Positions 1,247-47,656 of a stretch of DNA of 48,875 nucleotides are shown piece by piece. Made by a program: the position numbers and the translations under genes. The first letter of the stretch is position 1. Each line of letters starts with the position of its first letter. The DNA comes from an uncultured Ectothiorhodospiraceae bacterium (GTDB lineage Bacteria; Pseudomonadota; Gammaproteobacteria; S012-40). A model generated the notes under the pieces. That model had not been told where the DNA came from. It saw only the letters and a program-made list of their open reading frames with translations, and searched no databases. The stretch spans positions 1-48,875 of the forward strand of contig CALZJE010000016.1 in assembly GCA_945787715.1 (NCBI GenBank), in the 5' to 3' direction.

Positions 1247-2860
1247 TCATATCTTGACACCATACCCCGGTATTTTTTGGATATCTATTTCGTCAATTTG
1301 TTCACTGGATAGGAACTTTTCGGCGTATTTCAGGTAGATTTTTTCGGAGACAAACAGGTCGAAAAGATCTCCATCAATATGAAAATCTAATTTCATGTTT
1401 CCTAAGATAGTTATTGCTGTCGATAAATTCATCGCTTTTTTATAGGGGCGGTCATCAGCAGTAAGCGCCTCAAAAATATCTGCGATGCACATGAGTCTGG
1501 CTTGAATCGATAATTCTCTCCCGTTTATTCCATTAGGGTAGCCTTTGCCGTCCATACGCTCATGATGATTGCCCGCTATTTCAGGAACATTTTTTAGATG
1601 TTTTGGGAACGGTAAGGAGCTAAGCATGCTTTGGCTCATGACAATGTGATGATTGACGATCTTTCTCTCTTCGTCATTCAGTGTACCTTTGGCGATGCAC
1701 AAATTGAGCAATTCATCGTCATTTAGCAATTTACATTTTTTACCCTTTGCATCTTGCCAGCTGTATTCAGCAATTCGTTTCAGATTCTCTCGCGCTTCCT
1801 CACCCATAAATTCACTACCTTTATTCGCCTGAGCAATAAAGGTAAAATCTTGATCGAGCTGATCTAAAAATGACTGATACGTTTGTTCAGCAGATTTAAT
1901 AAATTCGGTGTCAGCTGACTCCAATTTGACTTTGAGTAGACGAATTTCTGCCTCTTTTTTTAATATTTCTATGCGCTCAGCAACTAGAGAAATTCGATCA
2001 TTAATTGTCTCTAGCTTGGTTGCTTTATCAACAACATGAACAGGTGTCGTGATTTTTCCACAATCGTGTAGCAGGGCTGCTATATTGAGTTCGTATAAAT
2101 CTTGTTCGTTGAATTTCACGTTTTTAAAAGCAGGTTGATCGCATTCGTTGATAGCGTTGGCTATTAGGGAAGCGATTTCCGGCACTCGGCGGCAATGACC
2201 GCCCGTGTAAGGCGATTTATCATCAATCGCACTGGCTATCACCTCAATAAATCGCTCTAAGAGTTCTTTCAGATTGCCAATGAGTTGATAGTTGGTAAGT
2301 GTGATCGCCGCCTGTGAAGCTAATGATTCTGCCATTTTTTGATCACGATATGAAAACGGCACAACTTCCGCCGTGCTTTTATTTTTGGCGTTAATTAATT
2401 GCAAGACACCGATAATTTCATCCTCATGATTACGCATAGGTATTGTAAGAAATGATTTTGATCGATAATTATTTTCTTTGTCGTAGATTTTTGTTCCTTG
2501 GAAATTAAATCCTTCAACTGAATATGCATCGGCAATATTGGTTGTTTGCCCTGTCACTGCGGTGTAAGCAGATACGTTTTGTAAGTTGGCTTCACCATCT
2601 TCTTTAATTAAAGGTATTGGCGGTAAATTAATAGCTTGCTTGCTTGTCCCGCCCATGGCCAGACCCATAGAATCTGTTTGTAAAATTTCAAAATGAAGCT
2701 GTTTATCTTTTACTAAATATAAAGTGCCTGCGTCTGCGGAAGTTATATCCTTAGCCCCTTCCAGGATTTTTTCGAGCAGTAACAGTGAATTTCGCTCTTT
2801 AGAAAGAGAGATACCAATTGAAGTGAGCTTTTCAATTTGTTTGATTATTTCTGCTGTCAT
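1247..2860 (-). CDS. GAF / HD-GYP domain c-di-GMP phosphodiesterase
   Basis: A cytoplasmic 537-residue signalling protein. Residues about 15-190 form a GAF domain, and residues about 205-520 an HD-GYP domain that should hydrolyse cyclic di-GMP. The metal and catalytic motifs are visible: GGHCRRV (220-226), LLHDCGKI with H265-D266, HH at 404-405, HHERMDGKGYP (432-442). Between the HD motif and the following helix there is an insertion of roughly 110 residues (about 283-392), mostly charged helix, where ordinary HD-GYP domains have about a dozen residues. There is no receiver domain, so the GAF domain is the likely sensory input. It lies downstream of apaG, separated by a terminator, so it is probably transcribed on its own. 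It counterbalances the WspR cyclase encoded at 13.5 kb in the same window. Confidence 0.88.
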   Translation of the reverse strand: MTAEIIKQIEKLTSIGISLSKERNSLLLLEKILEGAKDITSADAGTLYLVKDKQLHFEILQTDSMGLAMGGTSKQAINLPPIPLIKEDGEANLQNVSAYTAVTGQTTNIADAYSVEGFNFQGTKIYDKENNYRSKSFLTIPMRNHEDEIIGVLQLINAKNKSTAEVVPFSYRDQKMAESLASQAAITLTNYQLIGNLKELLERFIEVIASAIDDKSPYTGGHCRRVPEIASLIANAINECDQPAFKNVKFNEQDLYELNIAALLHDCGKITTPVHVVDKATKLETINDRISLVAERIEILKKEAEIRLLKVKLESADTEFIKSAEQTYQSFLDQLDQDFTFIAQANKGSEFMGEEARENLKRIAEYSWQDAKGKKCKLLNDDELLNLCIAKGTLNDEERKIVNHHIVMSQSMLSSLPFPKHLKNVPEIAGNHHERMDGKGYPNGINGRELSIQARLMCIADIFEALTADDRPYKKAMNLSTAITILGNMKLDFHIDGDLFDLFVSEKIYLKYAEKFLSSEQIDEIDIQKIPGYGVKI

Positions 2861-2896
2861 TGACTTAGGGACCGCTGATGGACTGCTGGATTGTTT

Positions 2897-2952
2897 AACC
2901 TAAAAAAAGCAGTTGGTCGTGGAAATAGAACGTCTAACTGCTTTCCTGGGTT
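2897..2952 (-). terminator. Rho-independent terminator of the tal-pgl-glk-apaG operon
   Basis: On the minus strand a 9-bp stem AAAGCAGTT/AACTGCTTT (2936-2944 with 2906-2914) closes a 21-nt loop. An outer AACC/GGTT pairing (2897-2900 with 2949-2952) flanks it. The stem runs directly into a T-tract on the minus strand (the A-run at 2902-2908 on the plus strand). It sits about 75 nt past the apaG stop and before the HD-GYP start, the expected place for the end of the sugar-phosphate operon. Confidence 0.75.
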
Positions 2953-3025
2953 AAAGATATACGAGGTTATCGGGAGTGAGAGGGTGCAACTTAAGTGTTA
3001 GTGTTCAATGAATAAAAATGAATAC

Positions 3026-3409
3026 TTAATGTAGTGCGTGGGGTTTACTTAACGTGAATGTGGGAATGTGTGCGTCAAATTCGTTCTGATCGTCGGCCAA
3101 CATGGTGTAGCAACCACTCATGCTACCAACAGGGGTATCTAAAATTGTCCCACTGGTGTATTGAAAGCTTTCACCGGGTCTGAGATGGGGTTGTTCACCA
3201 ATAACACCAAGTCCTCTCACCTCATGAACCTTACCGTGTGCATCAGTAATTATCCAGTGTCGACTGATGAGCTTTGCAGGCATGTTGCCATCATTATGAA
3301 TAGTAATTGTGTAAGCGAATACAAACCGATCTTCTGATGGTTCAGATTGCTCTTGAATAAAGCTAGTTTCAACTTTAACGTTTATTTTATAAATTGCGTC
3401 AGGATTCAT
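3026..3409 (-). CDS. apaG: ApaG domain protein
   Basis: This is a 127-residue ApaG protein, a fibronectin-III-like fold historically linked to Co/Mg resistance and often encoded with apaH or ksgA. Recognisable segments are FAYTITIHNDGNMPAKLISR, HWIITDAHGKVHEV, LGVIGEQPHLRPGESFQYTSG and GSMSGCYTM. The start at 3409 is chosen because the family begins with such a short lead, the length equals the usual 125 or so, and its ATG overlaps the glk stop as ATGA, indicating translational coupling. A longer in-frame start at 3454 would lie inside glk and add 15 unrelated residues. It is the last gene of the tal-pgl-glk-apaG unit. The family is clear; its biochemical role remains poorly defined. Confidence 0.93.
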   Translation of the reverse strand: MNPDAIYKINVKVETSFIQEQSEPSEDRFVFAYTITIHNDGNMPAKLISRHWIITDAHGKVHEVRGLGVIGEQPHLRPGESFQYTSGTILDTPVGSMSGCYTMLADDQNEFDAHIPTFTLSKPHALH

Positions 3410-29886: not shown

Positions 29887-32800
29887 ATGAGATTAAAATT
29901 GGCTTTAGTTTTGTTGTTTCTAACCACACTATTTCCAGGTTTAGCGTTTGCATCACAAGCCGTTCATGGAAAAAAAATAAAGCCAATATCCCCCGTTCCT
30001 GTTAGCCATCAAAAAATTGCTTCAGATATTTCCCAATATTTACAGCAACAAAGCCAATCTACAACGCGAAAAAAAGTTTCCGCTTCTCGAACGCAAGGGC
30101 AGAGCAGTACTCGAATCACTAAAAAAGCGCTACATGAAAAAAATGGAACTGTTTCATTAATTCGTGGCAAATTATCGTCAGGTCCAATTGGTGGTAGTTT
30201 GAGAGATGTGGTAGAACAAGGTTGGAATCAACTACGACAGATTAAGCCGCTTGCTATCGACAATGAAGACGGTAATTTTCTTTTTCAAAAATTAAAAGAA
30301 GATCGTTTGCGAAAAACACACGCCTGGTATCAGCAAGCACGCGATGGCATTCCGCTGTGGGGCAAGCAAGTAGTTTTTCATATGAACGAAAAAAACCAAG
30401 TCTATCAGCTGCAAGGCGATTATCTCACTAAAACGTCTGTCAATTCTGTAGAACCGGGAATCTCGCTTGAGCAAGCGTTGGAATATGCGCGAGTTGCCGT
30501 CGATGAGAAAAATGCAAAATTAAATTCAGCAGAACTCAACTATTTTGACGATGATGGTGAAGAGCTTAGGCTTGCCTATAAATTTGAATTAATACATGGC
30601 TTAGATAAGCGTTGGATCGTTTTTATTGATGCGTGGAATGGCTCTGTTTTACACAAAATTTACAATATTCACAGTGCAGGAAACGTAGTTGCTGCCTCGG
30701 GGGAAAATCTTTCCGGTGAAACAGTTAACTTTAATAGCTGGTTTGAAAACGGTACGTATTATCTCATAGATCCAACAACGCCTGCAGATGAAGGGAGTTA
30801 CGCGCCTTTATCCCGCGGTCCTAATCCATCAGGTGACACATTTATCTATGATGCAAAAGAGAGTGATGGCAGTATTGTTGATTTTGTCAGTAACAGCAGT
30901 GTAAATAATGGATGGGATCGTATTGCGGTTAGCGCATTACAAAACACACATCGAGTCTATAATTATTTTCTGGATACATTTTCTCGTAGAAGTATAGATG
31001 GAAATGATAAAAACCTGTTTGCAGCGGTTCATTTTGAGAAATCCTATAATAACGCCTTCTGGAATGGTTCGTTTATGGTTTATGGGAATGGCGATGGTCG
31101 GATATTTACGCCTTTAGCGAATTGTCTGGACGTTGCCGCTCATGAAATGACGCATGGTGTAATTGAAAACACTGCAAACCTTATCTATCAAAACCAAAGT
31201 GGTGCGTTGAATGAATCATTTGCTGATGTATTTGCAATTTTTATGGACCGTGATGATTGGACTATAGGCGAAGATTGCACTGTGATTGCGCCAGGGTTTT
31301 TGAGAAGTTTTTCAAATCCTGAATCGGGATTAGATAAACAACCTCGAAAAATGAGTAACTATGTTAACTTGCCTAATACTATCGACGGTGATAATGGTGG
31401 TGTGCACATTAATAGTGGCATTCCCAATCATGCTGCCTATCTATTTATAAATCGGTTGATTGATTTAGGTTTTTCAAAAAATGAAGCTTATACACGAGCC
31501 GAGCAAATCTATTACCGTGCACTTGATGTATATCTTCATGCATCATCACGATTTGTGGATGCGCGCCGAGCGCTTATTTCAGCAGCTGAGGATCTGTATG
31601 GTGATGCTGAAATCAATGCGCTAAACGACGCATGGGATGAAATTGAAGTTTTCGATTTTGGTGAGGAGCCAGCTGCACAAACCCCGAGTAGTGTTAAAGA
31701 GGTTGCGGGCAACGATATTATGGTTTACCTCACGCCTGTTGGTGGTTCATTGGATTTGTATGTTCACGTTTATGAAGATGTGACAGCGACCACAGTGGAT
31801 AATAATAATTATTTTGGCCCAATAAACTCACAGGGGTTTGGCTTCCCAGTCTCTGTCGCAGAAACCAGGCCAGCAGCTATAACAGATGAGATAGGGACGC
31901 TCTATTTTTTTGTAAGTCAGCAACTGAATCTCTATTCCTCCGAATTTAATGGTGTACAGTTTGTTGCGCGACAATTAACAGACGATAATAATATATGGAG
32001 CATCGCAGTTTCACCTGATGGCCGATATTTCGCCTATACCACCGCATTTCAAGAAGCTGTGATTAATATTATTGATCTGGAAAATGGAACAGAAGAAAGT
32101 TATTCCATAGAGCCAACGAGTTATCAAGAGAGTGGCTCAAGCACCACCAATACATTGCTTTACGCGGATTCGCTAAATTTTGATTTTTCCAGTAATAAGA
32201 TTGTATTTGATGCATTGAACTGTATCTCAACACCAGGGGACTCTTGTTCAACTGGCGGCGGATATCAATATTGGTCAATAGGCATACTAGATGTTGCGTC
32301 CAGACGTGTTACCAATCCAATGCCAGATCAAAGCCCAATTATAGATTTGGGTTATCCCACATTTGCGACAAATAATAACTATGTTATTGCAATGGATCAC
32401 TCAGTGTATGATGAAACAACTTCCTCATTTCATTCAAAGGTGGTGAGTTTTAACTATGAAACTCAAGAGATGCATACATTAGTTGATTTAGGTGTGGCAA
32501 GTTCCCAGTTTTTTGGCGTACCTTCATTCTGGGGGAATGATCATTTCATGACAGCCCTGACTAACTCTAGTGGTAATGTGCTTGCTCAAAAAATAGAGAT
32601 GACCGGCAACTGGGAACGCAAAGGATCAAGTGCAGTGAGCTTAAGTAGCCAGCCGATCAGCTATCCTATTATGCATAGAGCTGCCTATCGCAAACTAACC
32701 AGCCTATTGACACTAAGTACTGACGTTTTAAATTTTGGTAATTTGGATGTCGGCGTTAGAAAAACATTAGAGCTCAAGCTTTCAAACAAGGGTGATTTTG

Positions 32801-33138
32801 ATGTTGAATTAATCAATATCTCCATTGAAGATGCAGAGTTCACCCATGATGGAGCCGCTAGTCGAATCCCGGTGGATGGCTCGAAGACAATAAAAATTAA
32901 TTTTATAGGAAATAATATTGCTGATTACAATAGTGTCATCCGCATTCAAACCGATGGAAGAGGAAATGCTTATAGCATTCCGCTTTTCGCAAAAGTTGGC
33001 GGTGTTGGTAGTGCTGTCAGTGCTGGCAGTGCTAGTGGCTGTAGTGCGGGTAGCGGTGGAACGGTTGATTGGACGCTTGTTTTGTTATTGATGTTAGCAG
33101 TGACTGGATTGATACGTGGTAAGTTGAATAAGCAATAA
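29887..33138 (+). CDS. Secreted M4 (thermolysin-family) metalloprotease with propeller, Ig-like and C-terminal sorting domains
   Basis: A 1083-residue exported protease. After a signal peptide (1-23) come an FTP/PepSY-type propeptide (about 80-260) and a thermolysin domain (about 280-590) with zinc site H419-E-M-T-H423, third ligand E443 in NESFADVFAI, and the C-terminal GVHINSGIPNHAAYLF catalytic histidine region. A beta-propeller-like region (about 610-950, with VSPDGRYFAYTTAF) and an ASPM/HYDIN-like Ig domain (LNFGNLDVGVRKTLELKLSN) follow. The last 35 residues are Gly/Ser/Cys-rich (SGCSAGSGG), a hydrophobic helix and a basic end (RGKLNKQ): a tripartite CTERM-type surface sorting signal. 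Such proteases digest extracellular protein. It stands alone, 30 nt after queA. Confidence 0.9.
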   Translation: MRLKLALVLLFLTTLFPGLAFASQAVHGKKIKPISPVPVSHQKIASDISQYLQQQSQSTTRKKVSASRTQGQSSTRITKKALHEKNGTVSLIRGKLSSGPIGGSLRDVVEQGWNQLRQIKPLAIDNEDGNFLFQKLKEDRLRKTHAWYQQARDGIPLWGKQVVFHMNEKNQVYQLQGDYLTKTSVNSVEPGISLEQALEYARVAVDEKNAKLNSAELNYFDDDGEELRLAYKFELIHGLDKRWIVFIDAWNGSVLHKIYNIHSAGNVVAASGENLSGETVNFNSWFENGTYYLIDPTTPADEGSYAPLSRGPNPSGDTFIYDAKESDGSIVDFVSNSSVNNGWDRIAVSALQNTHRVYNYFLDTFSRRSIDGNDKNLFAAVHFEKSYNNAFWNGSFMVYGNGDGRIFTPLANCLDVAAHEMTHGVIENTANLIYQNQSGALNESFADVFAIFMDRDDWTIGEDCTVIAPGFLRSFSNPESGLDKQPRKMSNYVNLPNTIDGDNGGVHINSGIPNHAAYLFINRLIDLGFSKNEAYTRAEQIYYRALDVYLHASSRFVDARRALISAAEDLYGDAEINALNDAWDEIEVFDFGEEPAAQTPSSVKEVAGNDIMVYLTPVGGSLDLYVHVYEDVTATTVDNNNYFGPINSQGFGFPVSVAETRPAAITDEIGTLYFFVSQQLNLYSSEFNGVQFVARQLTDDNNIWSIAVSPDGRYFAYTTAFQEAVINIIDLENGTEESYSIEPTSYQESGSSTTNTLLYADSLNFDFSSNKIVFDALNCISTPGDSCSTGGGYQYWSIGILDVASRRVTNPMPDQSPIIDLGYPTFATNNNYVIAMDHSVYDETTSSFHSKVVSFNYETQEMHTLVDLGVASSQFFGVPSFWGNDHFMTALTNSSGNVLAQKIEMTGNWERKGSSAVSLSSQPISYPIMHRAAYRKLTSLLTLSTDVLNFGNLDVGVRKTLELKLSNKGDFDVELINISIEDAEFTHDGAASRIPVDGSKTIKINFIGNNIADYNSVIRIQTDGRGNAYSIPLFAKVGGVGSAVSAGSASGCSAGSGGTVDWTLVLLLMLAVTGLIRGKLNKQ

Positions 33139-33203: not shown

Positions 33204-35219
33204 TCAATCCAAAGTAACCACCATTTCAGGTTTCGTCGCTTCTACAGTTTCAAACAACGGCATAGACCTCGGCATGGCCAGGCGAGAACATACTGCTTGA
33301 ACTTCTTCATAAATTTGCTGTGGTTTGTCGGTGTAGCGTTGTGAAAAGTGGAATGGCACAAGTCGGCCAACTTCGGCGGCCATCGCGATTTCGCCACAGG
33401 CGCGCGTGGTTAAATGACCAGTGCGCATCGCTTGCTCGGCATCGGCCTCAACGAAACGGGCTTCGCAGAAAAAGGTGTGCGCGTAGTGAGCCAGGGTCTG
33501 CAGATGTTGGCGATTGTCTGGAGTGTCCGCGAGGTCGGTGGCATACACCAGCTTCTTGGTTGGTGCGATCAGCACAAGATCGTCCGCTAATGTTGCAATA
33601 TCTGTTTCACTACCGTCTGGCAACCGCACCCGTGCCTTCCAATTTTCAGCTAGCAGGTGTTGCTTTAATTCACTCAGCCACGGTCCTGGTTGCAAGCCGC
33701 GCATTCGCAGGCGGTCTTTGCGAATGTTGATCTCCTTTGCGGGTTCAAAGGTATAGACTAGTACCGGTGTGTGGTGATCTAGTAGTTGTGCCCTCACGCG
33801 GAAGCCAGCTTCTTGCAGTACTATTCCCTCGTCTAGCTCGACTTCCTTTAGAAACTCTCGACCTGCATGCCCAGCTTGTAAGCGAAACCAGTGCAGATGG
33901 TTAGTATGTAACTTAGTATGCAACTCTGCGACTTCGAAGCAGGGGCCACGTTCTGCCACACGATCCCAAAGAAAGCCTTGCAGAAAACCTTCGATGTGTC
34001 GGGCCAGCCCCGGCGGACCATAGAGCCTGCAGGCTGGGAACTCACCGATACGCGAGCGCAGTAACCATGGGAAACCGCTGATATGGTCCATGTGCGCATG
34101 GCTAATGAAGATGTCGGTCACCTGATGGGTAATGCGAGCCGGCAGGCGAGAACCATCACCCAAATCAAAGAGTAGGCTGCGGCGCTGATGGCGCAAGCGT
34201 AGGTGCAGAAGGGGATCACCGAAGACACCATTAACCAGGCTAACATCGGCCGACCCGACCCGACCAACGACACGTGGTCCGCCACTTTCCTGCATCGGTA
34301 TAGTCATGTCAGGGGGCGGCAGGTATTCGAGTCGCTCCGTTACAAATGGTATTGCGGTTTCCAACAGACCATCTATTGAGCGTTGTGCGTCACGCACCAA
34401 TAGGGTGTCGATCGCCAACGGCACAGCAGATGATCTGATGGTTAATTGCTGGGCTTGAAGTCTCACCACCTCAGCCATAGCTACAGGCTGATTGCATTGC
34501 AATAGCGCGACCTGCCTACCCACCCAGGCATTTTTTTCGCCAAGCGGTGGTGGTGTGCCAATAATGTTCAGCCTATCCAGATCGAGAGAGTGCTCTGTAG
34601 CTTCACTGACATAGGCATCCCAGCGTTCAGTACGCTGGCGGGCACGGGCACGCTTGCCCGGTCGTCTTGCTTCTGCTGAAGCGTGGACAACAAACACCTC
34701 GCTTGCTAAAGCACGCAGTTCATCAAGTAGCGGTGGTGGACGTTCTGCAGCGGTGAGGGCTAACACACCATCCGCATCAGTCGCCTCTAACAAACCTTGC
34801 AACAGCTCGCGACCTGCAACACCACGCACTACACCAGGGCCATCGATCAAGAGCACGCCATCGTTTATTAGTTGTGCCAGGCGTCGTACTGCCGTCACCA
34901 AAGGCAAACGGAAACGGCCTGCATCAAGACTGCACAAGGCCTCAAAATCCGAAACCTGCCAACTATCCGCCTGCCATCTGCCGAGAGAGACGGCACCTGG
35001 AAGACCAAACGCAGGAGAGCCAGGATCGGCGCAGATGCAGAAACACTTTCGACCTGTCGCAAAAAGGAAACGCGCCAGCTGCGCAGCCAGCGTCGATTTA
35101 CCTACACCCGGTGGACCATATAGCAACAGCCGACGATCATGTTTTATCACGGCATTGGTGATAGCTTCGGCGTTACAGGCTAAAATAGGCATTTCGTAGT
35201 TAGCTATATTTTTCACCAT
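33204..35219 (-). CDS. Fusion of Clp1/Grc3-like polynucleotide 5'-kinase and RNase Z-type MBL nuclease
   Basis: A 671-residue two-domain protein. The N-terminal P-loop domain has LLYGPPGVGKSTLAAQLARF (Walker A about 35-43) and, soon after, ADPGSPAFGLPGAVSLG (64-80), which mirrors the DxGQ-x-FTPPG-x-VSL signature of the Clp1/NOL9/Grc3 RNA 5'-kinases. Walker B is VLLIDGPGVV (122-131). From about 305 the chain is RNase Z-like: VNGVFGDPLLHLRLR, ISHAHMDHISGFPWLLRSR (ligands H374, H376, D378, H379), GPPGLARHIEGFL, LDHHTPVLVY, LVYATDLADT, TGHLTT and the FHFSQRY end. RNase Z makes tRNA 3' ends. It starts at ATG 35219 with AGGAGG about 14 bases upstream, 18 nt after the DUF6763-like gene, probably co-transcribed. 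High GC contrasts with the protease gene that converges on it. Kinase activity is inferred from motifs only. Confidence 0.82.
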   Translation of the reverse strand: MVKNIANYEMPILACNAEAITNAVIKHDRRLLLYGPPGVGKSTLAAQLARFLFATGRKCFCICADPGSPAFGLPGAVSLGRWQADSWQVSDFEALCSLDAGRFRLPLVTAVRRLAQLINDGVLLIDGPGVVRGVAGRELLQGLLEATDADGVLALTAAERPPPLLDELRALASEVFVVHASAEARRPGKRARARQRTERWDAYVSEATEHSLDLDRLNIIGTPPPLGEKNAWVGRQVALLQCNQPVAMAEVVRLQAQQLTIRSSAVPLAIDTLLVRDAQRSIDGLLETAIPFVTERLEYLPPPDMTIPMQESGGPRVVGRVGSADVSLVNGVFGDPLLHLRLRHQRRSLLFDLGDGSRLPARITHQVTDIFISHAHMDHISGFPWLLRSRIGEFPACRLYGPPGLARHIEGFLQGFLWDRVAERGPCFEVAELHTKLHTNHLHWFRLQAGHAGREFLKEVELDEGIVLQEAGFRVRAQLLDHHTPVLVYTFEPAKEINIRKDRLRMRGLQPGPWLSELKQHLLAENWKARVRLPDGSETDIATLADDLVLIAPTKKLVYATDLADTPDNRQHLQTLAHYAHTFFCEARFVEADAEQAMRTGHLTTRACGEIAMAAEVGRLVPFHFSQRYTDKPQQIYEEVQAVCSRLAMPRSMPLFETVEATKPEMVVTLD

Positions 35220-37006: not shown

Positions 37007-38857
37007 ATGAACACCGAAAATCAACCCCCCAAACAACCTTTATCATGGATAACATTAGCCGTGATGCTAGGTTTTATCGTCTCCTATATGCTGTTCCGGG
37101 CTGTACCTACTGAGCCTGTCTATGATGTTCCTTATAGTGAGTTTAAAACTATGATTAGGGAACGGAGAATACAAGAGGTGATATTGCGTGGTGAGAATGT
37201 TGAAGGGCGGTTGTTTGTACCGGAGGTTATCGGGCCGCAAGGCGAGCAGGCAACACGATTTCAGAGTCGTATTCCAGCTTTTGGTGATTCAGCACTGTTG
37301 CTCGAGATGGAGGAGGCTGAAATTGCGGTGATAGTCGCCCCAGAGCGTGAAGAAAGTCTGTTTCAACAGTTACTTATAGCGACTCTGCCTTGGTTACTTT
37401 TTTTCGGTTTTTTTATTTGGATTATGGCGCGCACAGCTCGCAACATGGGGCGTTTTGGCGGACCTAATGAACTCGGTGGTTTTCTCAACCCCCCAGTTAA
37501 AGAGGCCGAGGTGCCCGAGGTGACTTTTGCTGATGTCGCCGGCCAGGAAAATGCCAAGCGAGAGATTACTGAGCTTGTTGAATACCTAAGAAATCCGGAG
37601 AAATTTCTTAAGCTCGGTGCAGAAATACCACGTGGTGTGCTGTTAATGGGAGCGCCGGGTACGGGAAAAACATTGCTGGCTAAGGCACTGGCCGGCGAAG
37701 CTGGCGTGCCGTTTTTTTCCATTTCTGGCTCAGAGTTTATCGAAGTTTTTGTTGGTGTTGGTGCTTCTCGTGTACGTCATTTATTCGAGGCAGCTAAAAA
37801 GAACTCCCCCAGTATCATCTTTATCGATGAGCTGGATAGTATCGGCCGTACCCGCGGTACTGGGCTGGGTGGTGGTCATGATGAACGCGAGCAAACCCTT
37901 AATCAAATCCTGGCTGAGATGGATGGTTTTAGCGGACGTGAAGCGGTGCTGTTGTTAGCTGCGACGAATCGTCCCGATGTGCTCGACCCAGCTCTGTTAC
38001 GACCTGGCCGCTTTGACCGTCATGTGATGTTGGACTTACCTGACCTGAAAGATCGTATCGCAATCTTAAGAGTGCATTCGCGCAAGACACCGCTAGCTCC
38101 AGAGGTCGATATGGACAAAATTGCCCGCGGTACACCAGGTTTTTCTGGCGCGGACCTCAAGAATCTGATCAATGAAGCTGCTATCTTGGCGGCTCGTGAG
38201 GATGAGCAACAGATCACCATGGCTGACTTTGATGAAGCACGCGATAAAGTACTCATGGGTACAGCGCGCACCCTGACAATCGAACCCGATGAACGCCATC
38301 GCTTAGCTGTACATGAGGCTGGCCATACCCTGGTGGCTTATTTTGCTCCTAATGCGGATACGCTCTACAAGGTAACCATTGTCCCACGTGGCCACGCACT
38401 GGGGGGTACCCAGCAACTGCCAGAACATGAACGCCACACCATGCCCGAAGAGTATCTGCAGGACCGCCTTGCCGTGATCTTTGGCGGCCGCGCTGCTGAA
38501 AAAGAGCTGCTCGGCACCTTAAGTTCCGGCGCTGATGATGATATTCACCAGGCCACTACTATGGCCCGCGCCATGGTCTCCCGTTGGGGTATGTCTGAAG
38601 AGGTGGGACCAGTTGATTTGCGCGAGAGTGAGAACCATCCTTTTCTAGGCCGCGAGATCGCCCAACCCCGTCATTACAGTGAGCACTCGGCCGAGACGGT
38701 GGATGACGCGGTAAGAGATTTGTTGATTAAGGCCGAGCAACGTGCCAGCAACATCATCACACAACATCGAGAAAAGCTGGATATATTAATCGCGCTGCTC
38801 GAAAAAGAAGAAACCCTCTACCGTGAGCAGATCGAAGAGTGTTTGGGAGCCGGGTAG
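37007..38857 (+). CDS. ftsH: FtsH-type ATP-dependent zinc metalloprotease (accessory copy)
   Basis: A 616-residue membrane AAA+ protease. Two N-terminal membrane helices (about 16-33 and 125-141) flank a small periplasmic domain. The AAA module has [19 protein letters not shown], Walker A GAPGTGKT (215-222), Walker [14 protein letters not shown] and the second region of homology [20 protein letters not shown]. The M41 protease site is [12 protein letters not shown] (H436, E437, H440). Housekeeping ftsH normally follows rlmE; here it stands among RNA-repair and envelope genes with higher GC, so a second copy is likely. Its substrate in this setting is unknown. TATAAT at 36970-36975 is a candidate -10 box upstream. 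Confidence 0.93.
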
Positions 38858-43595: not shown

Positions 43596-44141
43596 ATGAA
43601 AGAATGGAACGTCGTTGTGACAGTACATGAACACGCACATTGTTACGCACAGGCCTGCCGCTTTCTCAAGACCTTTGGCGAGCTCGCCAGGACAGATTTT
43701 TTTAATGTACTAACGCTAAAGGTAGCAGATGCCGAACAGTTCCTGCAACAACTGCATCAACAGTTCGATGAGGAACCTCAGTTGTTTGAATGTATTGCTC
43801 GGATATTGCCCGTTAGCCACACGTTTATCTATAAAACACCTGAAGAATTTGAAGTAAAGGCTGAGGCACTAATTTCGCCATGGGAAGTTAAGCTTGCTGG
43901 TACACGTTTTCACGTCCGTATGCACCGCCGTGGTTTTAAGGGTCGCCTGACCAGCCAGCAAGAAGAAAAAAATATCGCTGACATTCTGATGTGTTTGTTA
44001 GCGGAGCGTGGCGAGACGGCTAGCGTTGATTTCGATGATCCCGATTTTGTTGTCGTCGTTGAGACTATTGGTCAGCAGGCTGGTGTGTCTATATGGTCGC
44101 GCGAAGAGTTACTGCGTTACCCCTTGGTCAAGTTAGACTGA
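43596..44141 (+). CDS. THUMP-domain RNA-binding protein
   Basis: A 181-residue cytoplasmic protein that lacks any catalytic domain. From about residue 60 it matches the THUMP domain: FHVRMHRRGFKGRLTSQQEE, IADILMCLLAERGETASVDF, DDPDFVVVVETIGQQAGVSI. THUMP domains bind the 3' end of tRNA, as in ThiI and TRM11-type enzymes. A stand-alone THUMP protein acts as an adaptor, as TAN1 does for an acetyltransferase. It is followed 20 nt later by rtcA, so it may guide the Rtc enzymes to tRNA-like substrates; that is inference. A truncated paralogue lies at 36779. Confidence 0.83.
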   Translation: MKEWNVVVTVHEHAHCYAQACRFLKTFGELARTDFFNVLTLKVADAEQFLQQLHQQFDEEPQLFECIARILPVSHTFIYKTPEEFEVKAEALISPWEVKLAGTRFHVRMHRRGFKGRLTSQQEEKNIADILMCLLAERGETASVDFDDPDFVVVVETIGQQAGVSIWSREELLRYPLVKLD

Positions 44142-44161
44142 GCTTACATAAGACACCGGAT

Positions 44162-45187
44162 ATGAAGCCACAAGATATGTTAATTATCGACGGCTCCATG
44201 GGTGAGGGCGGCGGTCAGATCCTGCGTTCAGCACTGGCTCTTTCATTGTGCCTGGGGCAGTCATTCCGTATTTTTAATATTCGTGCAGCCAGAAAAAAAC
44301 CAGGGCTGAGGGCGCAACATCTGGTCGCAGTCAATGCCGCCGCCGCTATTGGTGAAGCTGATGTACACGGTGCAATACAAGGCTCACAGCAATTGGAATT
44401 TGTTCCTCACGGCATCAAACCAGGAGAGTATTGTTTTGATATTGGTACTGCTGGTAGCACTACTCTGGTTCTACAGACGATATTACTAGCGCTGCTGACA
44501 GCTGATGCACCTTCACATATCACCTTGCAAGGTGGTACTCATAATCCTCTCGCACCTCCCTTTGATTTTTTTGAACAAGCCTTCGTGCCACTGATTAATT
44601 GTATGGGGCCAACGTTAAAAACGCGACTGAAACGCCCTGGTTTTTTTCCCGTCGGTGGTGGCCTTGTCGAAGTGACAATTGAACCTGTGTCCGCTTTATT
44701 GCCATTGTATTTGCTGGAGCGTGGCGTGTTACTATCCCAATGTGCCTGGGCGATGGTTTCCCATTTGCCGGAACATATCGCAGAGCGTGAGCTGAATGTG
44801 ATCGGTCAGCAACTTGGCCTGCCGACGAGTGCCCTGGAAGTACGGCAGGCCAATGCTAAGGGGCCAGGTAATGCTGTCACGATTTTGATTGAAAGCGAAC
44901 ACGTGACTGAAGTGTTTGTTGGCATTGGTGAACGCGGTATCAGAGCAGAGGCAGTGGCCGAAGGCGTGGTCACAGCAGTGCGTCGTTATCTTGCTGCCGG
45001 GGTGCCTGTCGGAGAATATCTAGCGGATCAGTTACTATTACCGCTGGCTCTGGCCGGTGGCGACGGTTTTATCACCCTGCGCCCGACTCAGCACACCACA
45101 ACGAACATAGACGTATTGGAAAAATTCATGGGCAAACGGCTGGTTTGTGAAGAGTTGGGGCATGATCGCTGGAGGATCAGTTGCTGA
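44162..45187 (+). CDS. rtcA: RNA 3'-terminal phosphate cyclase
   Basis: RtcA adenylates an RNA 3'-phosphate and converts it into a 2',3'-cyclic phosphate. The 341-residue protein starts MKPQDMLIIDGSMGEGGGQI, with LRSALALSL next, and has IRAARKKPGLRAQHLVAVNA, FDIGTAGSTTLVLQTILLAL, LQGGTHNPLAPPFDFFEQAF, LKRPGFFPVGGG, and the nucleophile His in RPTQHTTTNID (H311; E. coli H309). The ATG at 44162 is chosen because the family starts here; an in-frame start at 44093 would overlap the THUMP gene. High GC. It precedes archease and rtcB by 420 nt. Confidence 0.95.
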   Translation: MKPQDMLIIDGSMGEGGGQILRSALALSLCLGQSFRIFNIRAARKKPGLRAQHLVAVNAAAAIGEADVHGAIQGSQQLEFVPHGIKPGEYCFDIGTAGSTTLVLQTILLALLTADAPSHITLQGGTHNPLAPPFDFFEQAFVPLINCMGPTLKTRLKRPGFFPVGGGLVEVTIEPVSALLPLYLLERGVLLSQCAWAMVSHLPEHIAERELNVIGQQLGLPTSALEVRQANAKGPGNAVTILIESEHVTEVFVGIGERGIRAEAVAEGVVTAVRRYLAAGVPVGEYLADQLLLPLALAGGDGFITLRPTQHTTTNIDVLEKFMGKRLVCEELGHDRWRISC

Positions 45188-45607
45188 AGTGCCGTAGCCT
45201 AGTGTTAATGTAAATAGTATAGGGAATCCTTTTTATCAATATTTTCGGATTGCCACAGGCTGTAATACAAGTAAACTTGTAGTAGCCTCGATAACGTACT
45301 ATATTTTTTTTGGAACCGATTTACCTTTTTACGAACGACATCATGGAAAAATCGGTCTACCTGAGTTAGGGTATATTTCTACAAGTTGTGATGGCATCAG
45401 TGTGAGGTGCTGGTCTTGCGATGGAATACCAAGTCACTTAAGCCACAGTATATTCCTATCGCACGCCGAGATAGGTTGTACGTATTTCTACGAGTTCCTT
45501 TTCCCGAATAATTGTGAATTAATAACTTATAGATTGGTCGGAATATTTATAATATGGAATTCTAATACACAGATATATTGCTTAGATCATGCCAAGGGAA
45601 TACCTGA
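45188..45607 (+). promoter_or_regulatory. Regulatory gap before archease-rtcB with two inverted repeats
   Basis: This 420-base AT-rich gap holds TACAAGT-AA-ACTTGTA (45266-45281), flanked by GGCT/AGCC, and ACCGATTT/AAATCGGT (45315-45322 with 45349-45356, 26-nt loop). A TATAAT is at 45548-45553, without a good -35 box. No sigma54 -24/-12 pair and no RtcR-like regulator gene were found, unlike in E. coli rtcBA. The first repeat has the look of a dimeric operator. A frame at 45402-45611 is not accepted as a gene. Confidence 0.4.
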
Positions 45608-46024
45608 ATGACTCATTGGGAACATTATCCACATGACGCTGATATGGGTGTTAGAGGATATGGTGAAACAAAAGCGCAAGCATTTGAACAGGCATTGCTC
45701 GCACTGTCAGCGATCATTATTAATCCTGATAAGTTGCACGCAGAAAAAAAGATTAGCATACATTGCTCAGCAGAAGATGATGAACTGCTGTTCGCTGATT
45801 GGCTGAACAGTATTATCTATCACATGGCAACAGATGACTTATTTTTCTGCCGCGCTAAAGTCAACATAGATAACGGACAATTAAATGCTGAGTTATGGGG
45901 TGAGCCCATTGATGTTAAACGTCATCAACCGACAGTTGAAGTGAAAGGAGCAACTTATACAACCTTGAAAGTTGTTGAGTATAAACCGGGAGAATGGCTG
46001 GCACAAACTGTTGTGGATGTTTAA
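45608..46024 (+). CDS. Archease, RtcB cofactor
   Basis: A 138-residue protein of the archease family, which stimulates guanylylation and turnover of the RNA ligase RtcB. HYPHDADMGVRGYGETKAQA is the N-terminal signature with metal-binding Asp; LFADWLNSIIYHM, ELWGEPID and the end TLKVVEYKPGEWLAQTVVDV (with the terminal Asp) complete it. It starts with ATG 45608 and is separated from rtcB by 201 nt containing a hairpin. Archease and rtcB next to each other are common in bacteria and archaea with archease-dependent RtcB. Confidence 0.92.
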   Translation: MTHWEHYPHDADMGVRGYGETKAQAFEQALLALSAIIINPDKLHAEKKISIHCSAEDDELLFADWLNSIIYHMATDDLFFCRAKVNIDNGQLNAELWGEPIDVKRHQPTVEVKGATYTTLKVVEYKPGEWLAQTVVDV

Positions 46025-46105
46025 TTGTCTTAGCCCGGATATTTCATGAATTTACGAGTTTATTGCGTAGCAATTAGATTTTACAAATGATTTTATGATT
46101 GAGGG

Positions 46106-46123
46106 CCGGACTGGTGCGTCCGG
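46106..46123 (+). promoter_or_regulatory. GC-rich hairpin between archease and rtcB
   Basis: CCGGAC pairs with GTCCGG around a 6-nt TGGTGC loop; a G-T and neighbouring pairs can extend it. It stands out in otherwise AT-rich spacer, 102 bases before rtcB. There is no immediate T-tract, so an attenuator, processing site or repeat remnant are all possible. Confidence 0.35.
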
Positions 46124-46225
46124 TCGATTGAAGAAAATTATTTTTAGAATTTAAAGTGCAAGAGAGAAAGCGTAAGATTTGTGAATTATTCGGGTTAGTC
46201 TTTAACTCACAGGAATTTAACATAA

Positions 46226-47656
46226 ATGGACATTAATTTATTAACGCAGGATTCGGAAACCAGTTGGCGCATTAAAGCTACCGGAAAAATGCGTGTGCCT
46301 GCTATTATCTATGCCGATCGTGGTCTGATCGAAGAAATGGATGACAAGGTGCGCGAACAGATCACCAATGTGGCCACTTTACCGGGTATTGTTAAAGCCG
46401 CCTATGCTATGCCGGATGCGCATTGGGGTTATGGTTTCCCCATCGGTGGTGTTGCGGCATTTGATGCAGAAGAGGGCGGTGTGGTTTCTGCTGGCGGTGT
46501 GGGTTTTGATATTTCCTGTGGTGTACGTGCATTAAAAACCGGATTGAAAAAATCCGATGTGGAAGCTGTAAAAAAACAGCTGGCTGATATTTTATTTCTT
46601 GAAATTCCAGCCGGTGTGGGTAGCACAGGTACGATTAATTTAACAACCCAGCAAATGGATAGAATGTTACTAGGTGGTGCTCAGTGGGCAGTGAAACAAG
46701 GGTTTGGTGAAACACAGGATTTGCAACGCATCGAAGAACAAGGTTGTATGTCGGGTGCTGCTCCATCAGAGGTTTCGGAGCGTGCCAAGAAACGGCAAAA
46801 GCGTGAAATGGGTACGCTGGGTTCCGGTAATCATTATCTGGAAGTGCAATATGTGGCTGAAGTTTACAATGAGAAAATAGCCAGCGCTTATGGCTTGAGA
46901 GAAGGAGATGTCATTGTTAGCATTCATTGTGGTTCACGCGGGCTTGGTCATCAAATCGGTACTGAATTTTTAAAATCCATGGTCATGGCGGCAGCCCAAT
47001 ATGACATACAATTACCTGATCGTGAACTGGCCTGTGCGCCGATCAAATCCTCATTGGGGCAATCCTATCTCGGCGCCATGCGTGCTGCTATCAATTGCGC
47101 ACTGGCAAACCGGCAAATACTGACACATCTGACAAGAAAATCATTTTCCCGTGTATTACCGGAAGCCTATTTATCATTGTTATATGATGTATCGCATAAT
47201 ACCTGTAAAGTCGAAGAGCATATTGTCGATGGGGAAAAAAGGCATTTATATGTTCACCGTAAAGGTGCGACCCGCGCATTTTCCAGTGGTAATACCGCTA
47301 TACCTGAAGATCTACGAGCATATGGTCAACCGGTTTTAATCGGTGGTTCTATGGGAACCTGTTCTTATGTGCTGGCAGGTGCGAATGAAAACGAAACACG
47401 AGCTTATTCATCCGCTTGTCATGGTGCCGGTCGCGCCATGAGTCGGCATCAGGCAAAACGTCAATGGCGTGGTAAAAACCTGATTGAAGAGTTGGCCGGC
47501 AGAGGTATCGAAATTCGCAGCCCAAGTTTGCGGGGTGTTGCAGAAGAAGCGCCAGGTGCTTATAAAAATGTCAGTGCGGTAGTTAATGCTGGTGAAGTTG
47601 CCGGACTCGCAAATAAAGTCGCAAAGCTAGTGCCGATGATTTGTGTCAAGGGTTAA
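46226..47656 (+). CDS. rtcB: RNA-splicing ligase RtcB (archease-dependent type)
   Basis: RtcB joins 3'-phosphate or 2',3'-cyclic phosphate RNA ends to 5'-OH ends using GTP and Mn. At 476 residues it fits the archaeal/eukaryotic-like length, not the 408-residue E. coli form. Motifs are AMPDAHWGYGFPIGGVAAFD, GGVGFDISCGVRAL (metal Cys), LGSGNHYLEVQYV, SIHCGSRGLGHQIG, LYDVSHNTCKVEEH and SACHGAGRAMSR, where H399 should take GMP. AGGA lies upstream of the ATG. It ends the RNA-repair run with archease and rtcA. A tRNA ligase or repair role is established for the family. Confidence 0.96.
   Translation: MDINLLTQDSETSWRIKATGKMRVPAIIYADRGLIEEMDDKVREQITNVATLPGIVKAAYAMPDAHWGYGFPIGGVAAFDAEEGGVVSAGGVGFDISCGVRALKTGLKKSDVEAVKKQLADILFLEIPAGVGSTGTINLTTQQMDRMLLGGAQWAVKQGFGETQDLQRIEEQGCMSGAAPSEVSERAKKRQKREMGTLGSGNHYLEVQYVAEVYNEKIASAYGLREGDVIVSIHCGSRGLGHQIGTEFLKSMVMAAAQYDIQLPDRELACAPIKSSLGQSYLGAMRAAINCALANRQILTHLTRKSFSRVLPEAYLSLLYDVSHNTCKVEEHIVDGEKRHLYVHRKGATRAFSSGNTAIPEDLRAYGQPVLIGGSMGTCSYVLAGANENETRAYSSACHGAGRAMSRHQAKRQWRGKNLIEELAGRGIEIRSPSLRGVAEEAPGAYKNVSAVVNAGEVAGLANKVAKLVPMICVKG

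Follow-up and report, generated by a model that had tools for sequence, protein, structure and literature searches.

The window analysed here is a stretch of 48,875 nucleotides from an uncultured Ectothiorhodospiraceae bacterium. It carries one unbroken frame of 671 codons (Table 1), over which the opposite, plus strand is full of stops, and which joins a Clp1/Grc3-like kinase to a metallo-beta-lactamase (MBL) domain of the RNase Z type. This arrangement had been proposed in an earlier note made from the letters of the DNA, and profile matches, structure searches and invariant active sites now bear it out. The fusion gene is convergent with the gene for a thermolysin-family (M4) peptidase, which carries a C-terminal JDVT-CTERM sorting signal (27.7 bits, cut-off 27), and a gene for an FtsH-family protease lies near it, with relatives in two other fusion loci (L020 and L027). 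The window also encodes an unfused MBL protein of 254 residues that is related to RNase Z and to cyclic-nucleotide phosphodiesterases. Neither a tRNA nor a conserved RNA element of Rfam was found in the window.

Table 1. The fusion gene, its domains and other genes of the window
Feature	Position	Strand	Basis or remarks
Clp1-kinase/RNase Z-like fusion gene, 671 aa (P0001)	33204..35219	minus	Pfam, NCBIfam, AlphaFold2
CLP1_P kinase core, residues 35-204	34608..35117	minus	P-loop G35-T43, catalytic-Asp motif D65-P-G, clasp-like D126-x-P-G, lid R192/R196
Beta-rich domain behind the kinase, residues ~208-310, with disordered linker 304-310 at its end	34290..34599	minus	inferred
RNase Z-like MBL domain, PRK02126 type, residues 326-649	33273..34244	minus	full metal-ligand set
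DUF6763 gene, 102 aa	35238..35546	minus	co-directional, 18 bp upstream of fusion
THUMP-domain protein, 181 aa	43596..44141	plus	relatives abut fusion in L018, L053
RtcA, RNA 3'-terminal phosphate cyclase	44093..45187	plus	relatives abut fusion in L022, L023; within ~650 bp in L018, L019
Archease	45608..46024	plus	with RtcB upstream of fusion in L035, L039
RtcB RNA ligase	46226..47656	plus
Unfused MBL protein, 254 aa	17168..17932
M4 peptidase	29887..33138
FtsH-family protease	37007..38857

The kinase core is recognised by the Pfam profile CLP1_P (PF16575), which matches the N-terminal part of the protein with an E-value of 1.2e-14 over profile positions 1-186 of 188, and the score of 55.1 bits exceeds the curated cut-off of 26.6 bits twofold. 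Its element ADPGSPAFGLPGAVSLG aligns with DADVGQKDIGPPACITLG of ordinary stand-alone bacterial Clp1 kinases, so that, relative to their DxGQ motif, the catalytic Asp is retained and the Gln is replaced. The earlier note had named an ordinary AAA or MinD-like ATPase, or a lack of similarity to CLP1_P, as what would speak against its proposal. Such an ATPase is rejected because CLP1_P spans the whole domain and the fold search returns Clp1; other P-loop families match weakly and in the Walker A region only. When solved structures were searched by sequence with the kinase profile, RecA and Midasin came first only because many weak P-loop matches were added up. The same note had considered a Clp1-type domain unexpected on a bacterial tRNA 3' nuclease. 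Clp1-type kinases as such are not new to bacteria, RNA kinase activity having been demonstrated for Thermus scotoductus Clp1 (Ts-Clp1; Saito et al. 2019, PMC6777427). The fusion kinase resembles Ts-Clp1 in its P-loop, its DxG catalytic-Asp motif, its lid arginine and its nearly full-length match to CLP1_P, but no fusion has been reported for Ts-Clp1, and the fusion kinases have DPGSP instead of DxGQ. As a branch they are divergent, with 22-28% identity to three stand-alone kinases from the same class.

The C-terminal half matches Lactamase_B_2 of Pfam and, with an E-value of 7.8e-86, the NCBIfam model NF002558 ('ribonuclease Z', PRK02126). PRK02126 is the closest family, with 33-40% identity to its stand-alone members and all metal motifs in common; the fusions nevertheless fall just under its cut-off of 315 bits (288 bits for the window protein, 292 and 272 bits for two others), and judged by sequence, the MBL half is a sister branch of the PRK02126 subfamily. 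The metal motifs that the earlier note had described are all present (H374-x-H376-x-D378-H379, H482, D562, H602 and H624) and are invariant among relatives. With RNase Z/ELAC1 (TIGR02651; 2fk6, 4gcw, 2cbn), this half shares the fold, the metal ligands and, in the substrate-arm region, a G-P-W-L...L-K element of the RNase Z motif, but it differs in being fused to a kinase and in scoring 105.4 bits, far under the 292.95-bit cut-off of the RNase Z equivalog.

An AlphaFold2 model of the fusion, computed with 45 aligned fusion proteins, reached a pLDDT of 91.2 and a pTM of 0.86, and pLDDT fell below 50 only in residues 1-4 and 304-310, the latter being the linker that precedes the MBL half. When this model was compared with the PDB by Foldseek, two families of structures were returned, RNase Z and Clp1/Grc3, one for each half. 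The RNase Z structures 2fk6, 4gcw (both with tRNA), 2cbn and 1y44 matched with TM-scores of 0.68-0.74 over the target, and the two RNase Z-tRNA complexes were the best-matching solved structures (E ~1e-18, TM 0.71 over the target). The Clp1/Grc3 family was represented by human CLP1 in the TSEN complex (8hmy_E, E = 3.7e-15) and C. elegans Clp1 (4oi1, E = 5.7e-14), each aligned over 290-312 columns, and further by 4ohy (C. elegans Clp1), yeast Clp1, and yeast and Chaetomium Grc3 (7y18 and 8puw are Grc3 structures), with E-values from 1e-15 to 1e-10 for 8hmy_E, 4oi1 and 7y18. Since the Clp1 alignments extend over 290-340 columns or more and the kinase core over only ~170 residues, the beta-rich region behind the core is, in the model, a probable counterpart of the Clp1 C-terminal domain. 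The kinase half (about residues 1-300) lacks the N-terminal domain of eukaryotic Clp1.

One scan of a species-representative genome collection gave 140 relatives, 80 of which were taken for locus analysis, with the reading frames in their loci picked by codon scoring. The fusion is kept as one open frame in 80/80 loci, a few of which end at contig edges, thus excluding an assembly or frame artefact, and both CLP1_P (E <= 1e-5) and Lactamase_B_2 are matched by all 45 sampled fusions. The carriers belong to the Gamma-, Beta-, Zeta- and 'Delta'-proteobacteria and include Chromatiales and other uncultured Gammaproteobacteria, Nitrosomonas, Methylobacter, Halomonas, Billgrantia, Marinobacter, Nitrococcus, Thiodiazotropha, Zetaproteobacteria, Desulfobulbus, Desulfobacteraceae and MAGs named 'Deltaproteobacteria'. 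A phage or plasmid origin was considered and set aside: phages gave no match, plasmids have matches to the MBL half only, without the fusion, and the three regions inspected had no RNA-repair neighbour. One MAG holds a fusion 100% identical to the window protein (L012) and, on a second contig, another that is 71% identical (L013, positions 1389-3386); as only one copy exists in the genome of the window, the second copy may be due to strain mixing.

Across the 80 fusions, G35, G40, K41, D65, G67, P69, P74, D126, P128, G129, R132, R192, R196 and W200 of the kinase half and H374, H376, D378, H379, H482, D562, H602 and H624 of the MBL half are invariant or nearly so; K41, D65, D126/P128/G129, R192 and R196, which align with the stand-alone Clp1 kinases, are found in 79-80 of the 80. 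Such invariance of active-site residues indicates that selection maintains both halves as enzymes that are probably active.

When a tree was built from the MBL half, a fully supported branch separated 43 fusions from 11 stand-alone PRK02126 proteins; the fusions are one clade in this tree, apart from the stand-alone members. By our reading, the fusion is present in eight and a stand-alone CLP1_P kinase in three of 274 sampled class genomes, and all three with the stand-alone kinase also have a stand-alone PRK02126 gene. At one locus (L126), a gene for a Clp1 kinase of 312 residues is followed, 127 bp downstream, by a stand-alone PRK02126 gene for 335 residues. Identity between this kinase and that of the fusion is only 28%, and the MBL partner falls in the stand-alone PRK02126 clade, suggesting a second, independent pairing of a kinase with PRK02126, seen in one genome. 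A conserved operon is not supported, as the pair was not seen in 30 other genomes of its order, which lack the kinase.

A survey of gene neighbours, which the earlier note had recommended, found RtcA, THUMP or archease-RtcB genes directly beside the fusion in several lineages. Such a gene lies in the locus stretch of 8/80 fusions, with several abutting; in the majority of loci no RNA-repair gene occurs within 8 kb, and in most the neighbours are unrelated to RNA. On the same strand as the fusion are found RtcA-THUMP-fusion (L018, gaps of 54 and 45 bp), RtcA-fusion (L023, gap of 40 bp; the same order in L019), fusion-RtcA (L022, gap of 59 bp), THUMP-fusion (L053, gap of 33 bp) and archease-RtcB-PolX-fusion (L039); archease-RtcB is close to the fusion in L035, and a THUMP gene is nearby in L042. 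The window has a THUMP-RtcA-archease-RtcB cluster (43596-47656) at 8-12 kb from the fusion, and several Nitrosomonas carry the fusion and RtcA on the same contig, separated by 13-20 kb. In the Halomonas group the fusion neighbourhood is conserved, and no RNA-repair gene was found there. The THUMP and RtcA frames of the window (43596-45187) share 49 bases as listed, which suggests either tight coupling or a later RtcA start. The PolX gene of L039 (6268-7992) encodes a full PHP-domain DNA polymerase X and shares a few bases with the fusion gene, which it overlaps. A DUF6763 gene directly precedes the fusion both in the window and in L024 (2193-2498), and in L133 (6107-6583) such a gene stands immediately upstream of a PRK02126 gene that is not fused, so that the DUF6763 protein may be part of the same process.

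Gene content also supports a link with RNA repair. RtcB is present in 30/40 carrier genomes and 94/274 class genomes, and RtcA in 19/40 and 22/274, respectively. In the class sample, RtcB is found in 19/22 of the genomes that have any PRK02126 domain and in 75/252 of those that have none (Fisher p ~2e-7, uncorrected for kinship), and RtcA in 10/22 compared with 12/252 (Fisher p ~4e-7, likewise uncorrected). The whole PRK02126 'ribonuclease Z' family, beyond the fusions, thus strongly co-occurs with RtcB and RtcA, which suggests a role in RNA repair for the entire family. The earlier note had envisaged that the kinase competes with RtcB for 5'-OH ends. A link to RtcB is upheld by neighbourhood and co-occurrence, but competition is not the whole story: RtcB is absent from 10/40 carriers, namely all Halomonas-group and Marinobacter genomes tested and those of L029 and L038, and competition with RtcB therefore cannot be the sole role of the fusion.

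Our preferred reading, to which we assign a probability of roughly 45%, is that the fusion is a two-headed RNA-end-processing enzyme that acts on broken RNA and takes damaged RNA out of sealing by RtcA, RtcB and archease. The N-terminal half is predicted to be a polynucleotide 5'-OH kinase of the Clp1/Grc3 family, and the C-terminal half a metal nuclease that resembles RNase Z and falls with the PRK02126 group. Through the tRNA-binding surface of RNase Z the enzyme would bind RNA that is broken or aberrant, probably tRNA or its halves; the kinase half would phosphorylate the 5'-OH end of the bound RNA, and the nuclease half would cut it at or near its 3' end. Because RtcB cannot join a 5'-phosphate end, the damaged RNA would then leave the sealing route for decay or re-maturation. 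The two catalytic activities, tRNA as the substrate, the sequence of steps and the consequence for sealing are inferred from the profile and structure matches, the invariant sites, the clusters with RtcA, THUMP and RtcB, the co-occurrence and the L126 gene pair. The carriers without RtcB and the lack of a nearby RNA-repair gene in most loci argue against this reading. RNase Z leaves 3'-OH and 5'-phosphate ends, and its own products would therefore need no kinase, which also counts against it.

The MBL half could instead be the only RNase Z of its hosts, serving housekeeping maturation of tRNA 3' ends, with the kinase half in an accessory role, binding the 5' end of the tRNA or conditioning it. 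RNase Z-tRNA complexes are its closest solved structures, and neither the window's genome nor 40 other carriers have a canonical RNase Z above the TIGR02651 cut-off. This absence is the norm, however, with only 2/274 class genomes exceeding the cut-off, and it is therefore no proof of replacement by the fusion. Moreover, RNase P leaves a 5'-phosphate, and normal maturation thus presents no 5'-OH to a kinase. ARAGORN predicted 14 tRNAs in carrier loci and five in 800 kb of the window's own genome, 18/19 of which have an encoded CCA (the remaining one overlaps with the fusion gene and is likely a false prediction), and CCA is a strong inhibitor of B. subtilis RNase Z, though not of all RNase Zs (PMC7479834). 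As the sampled carrier tRNA genes encode CCA, ordinary maturation of CCA-less precursors is unlikely to be the main role, and the housekeeping explanation as a whole appears improbable. The term bacterial tRNA 3' nuclease, used in the earlier note, is not supported for a PRK02126-like domain in hosts with such tRNA genes.

We similarly doubt that the fusion heals RNA for a classical ligase of 5'-phosphate and 3'-OH ends, the kinase healing the 5' end and the MBL half trimming the 3' end of nicked tRNA in parallel to sealing by RtcB. The RNA-repair neighbours and the carriers without RtcB would fit, and, as PMC6777427 discusses, Clp1-type kinases can act in the 5'-phosphate pathway of tRNA splicing, but no ATP-dependent RNA ligase was noticed within the window. 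In addition, an RNase Z domain is not known to be an end-healing 3' phosphatase.

It is less probable again that the protein acts outside RNA repair, with the P-loop half as a nucleotide-dependent regulator and the MBL half hydrolysing another phosphodiester, such as AMP on modified proteins. RNase Z itself was reported in 2025 to act as a deAMPylase (PMC12663964), P-loop proteins of the same class were annotated as GTPases before the Ts-Clp1 assay (PMC6777427), and the neighbours in most loci would agree with such a role. The invariance in the fusions of the lid arginine and catalytic Asp of Clp1 kinases, and the association with RtcA and RtcB, speak against it. A bacterial analogue of the Las1-Grc3/NOL9 rRNA-processing complex, in which the nuclease half cuts RNA and leaves a new 5'-OH that the kinase half phosphorylates for a 5'-phosphate-dependent exonuclease, is very improbable: the metal-dependent chemistry of RNase Z gives the downstream product a 5'-phosphate, not a 5'-OH, and so would not make the substrate of the kinase. 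A nuclease is coupled with a Clp1/Grc3-family kinase in both, and Grc3 of that complex is among the structural matches, but Las1 is a HEPN nuclease on a separate polypeptide of a eukaryotic complex with other cleavage chemistry.

Bacterial Clp1 kinases and RNase Z are each already known. An incomplete literature search found no published description of a Clp1-RNase Z fusion, and the words 'RNase Z' and 'lactamase' do not occur in the text of a survey of Clp1-family proteins that included 149 bacterial ones (Saito et al. 2019, PMC6777427). The genes of RtcA-RtcB-archease RNA-repair operons are recurrent neighbours of the fusion and co-occur with it, but neither a Clp1 kinase nor an RNase Z was found described as a component of such operons in the literature searched. 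Since the fusion is conserved across many proteobacteria and sometimes stands beside RNA-repair genes, it may decide between the mending and the discarding of broken RNA. More tentatively than the end-processing role itself, it may be a hitherto undescribed, conserved proteobacterial RNA-fate enzyme that brings a Clp1-type 5'-OH kinase and an RNase Z-type nuclease to one broken RNA, opposing or complementing RtcB sealing, a pairing that would have arisen twice, as a fusion and as a gene pair. The fusion and its statistical and positional link to RtcA and RtcB offer a testable hypothesis for bacterial Clp1 kinases and for PRK02126, namely the control of RNA ends in the repair or decay of broken tRNA. 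The cultivable carriers Nitrosomonas, Methylobacter, Halomonas and Marinobacter include some with and some without RtcB, and the idea of competition is therefore directly testable in them.
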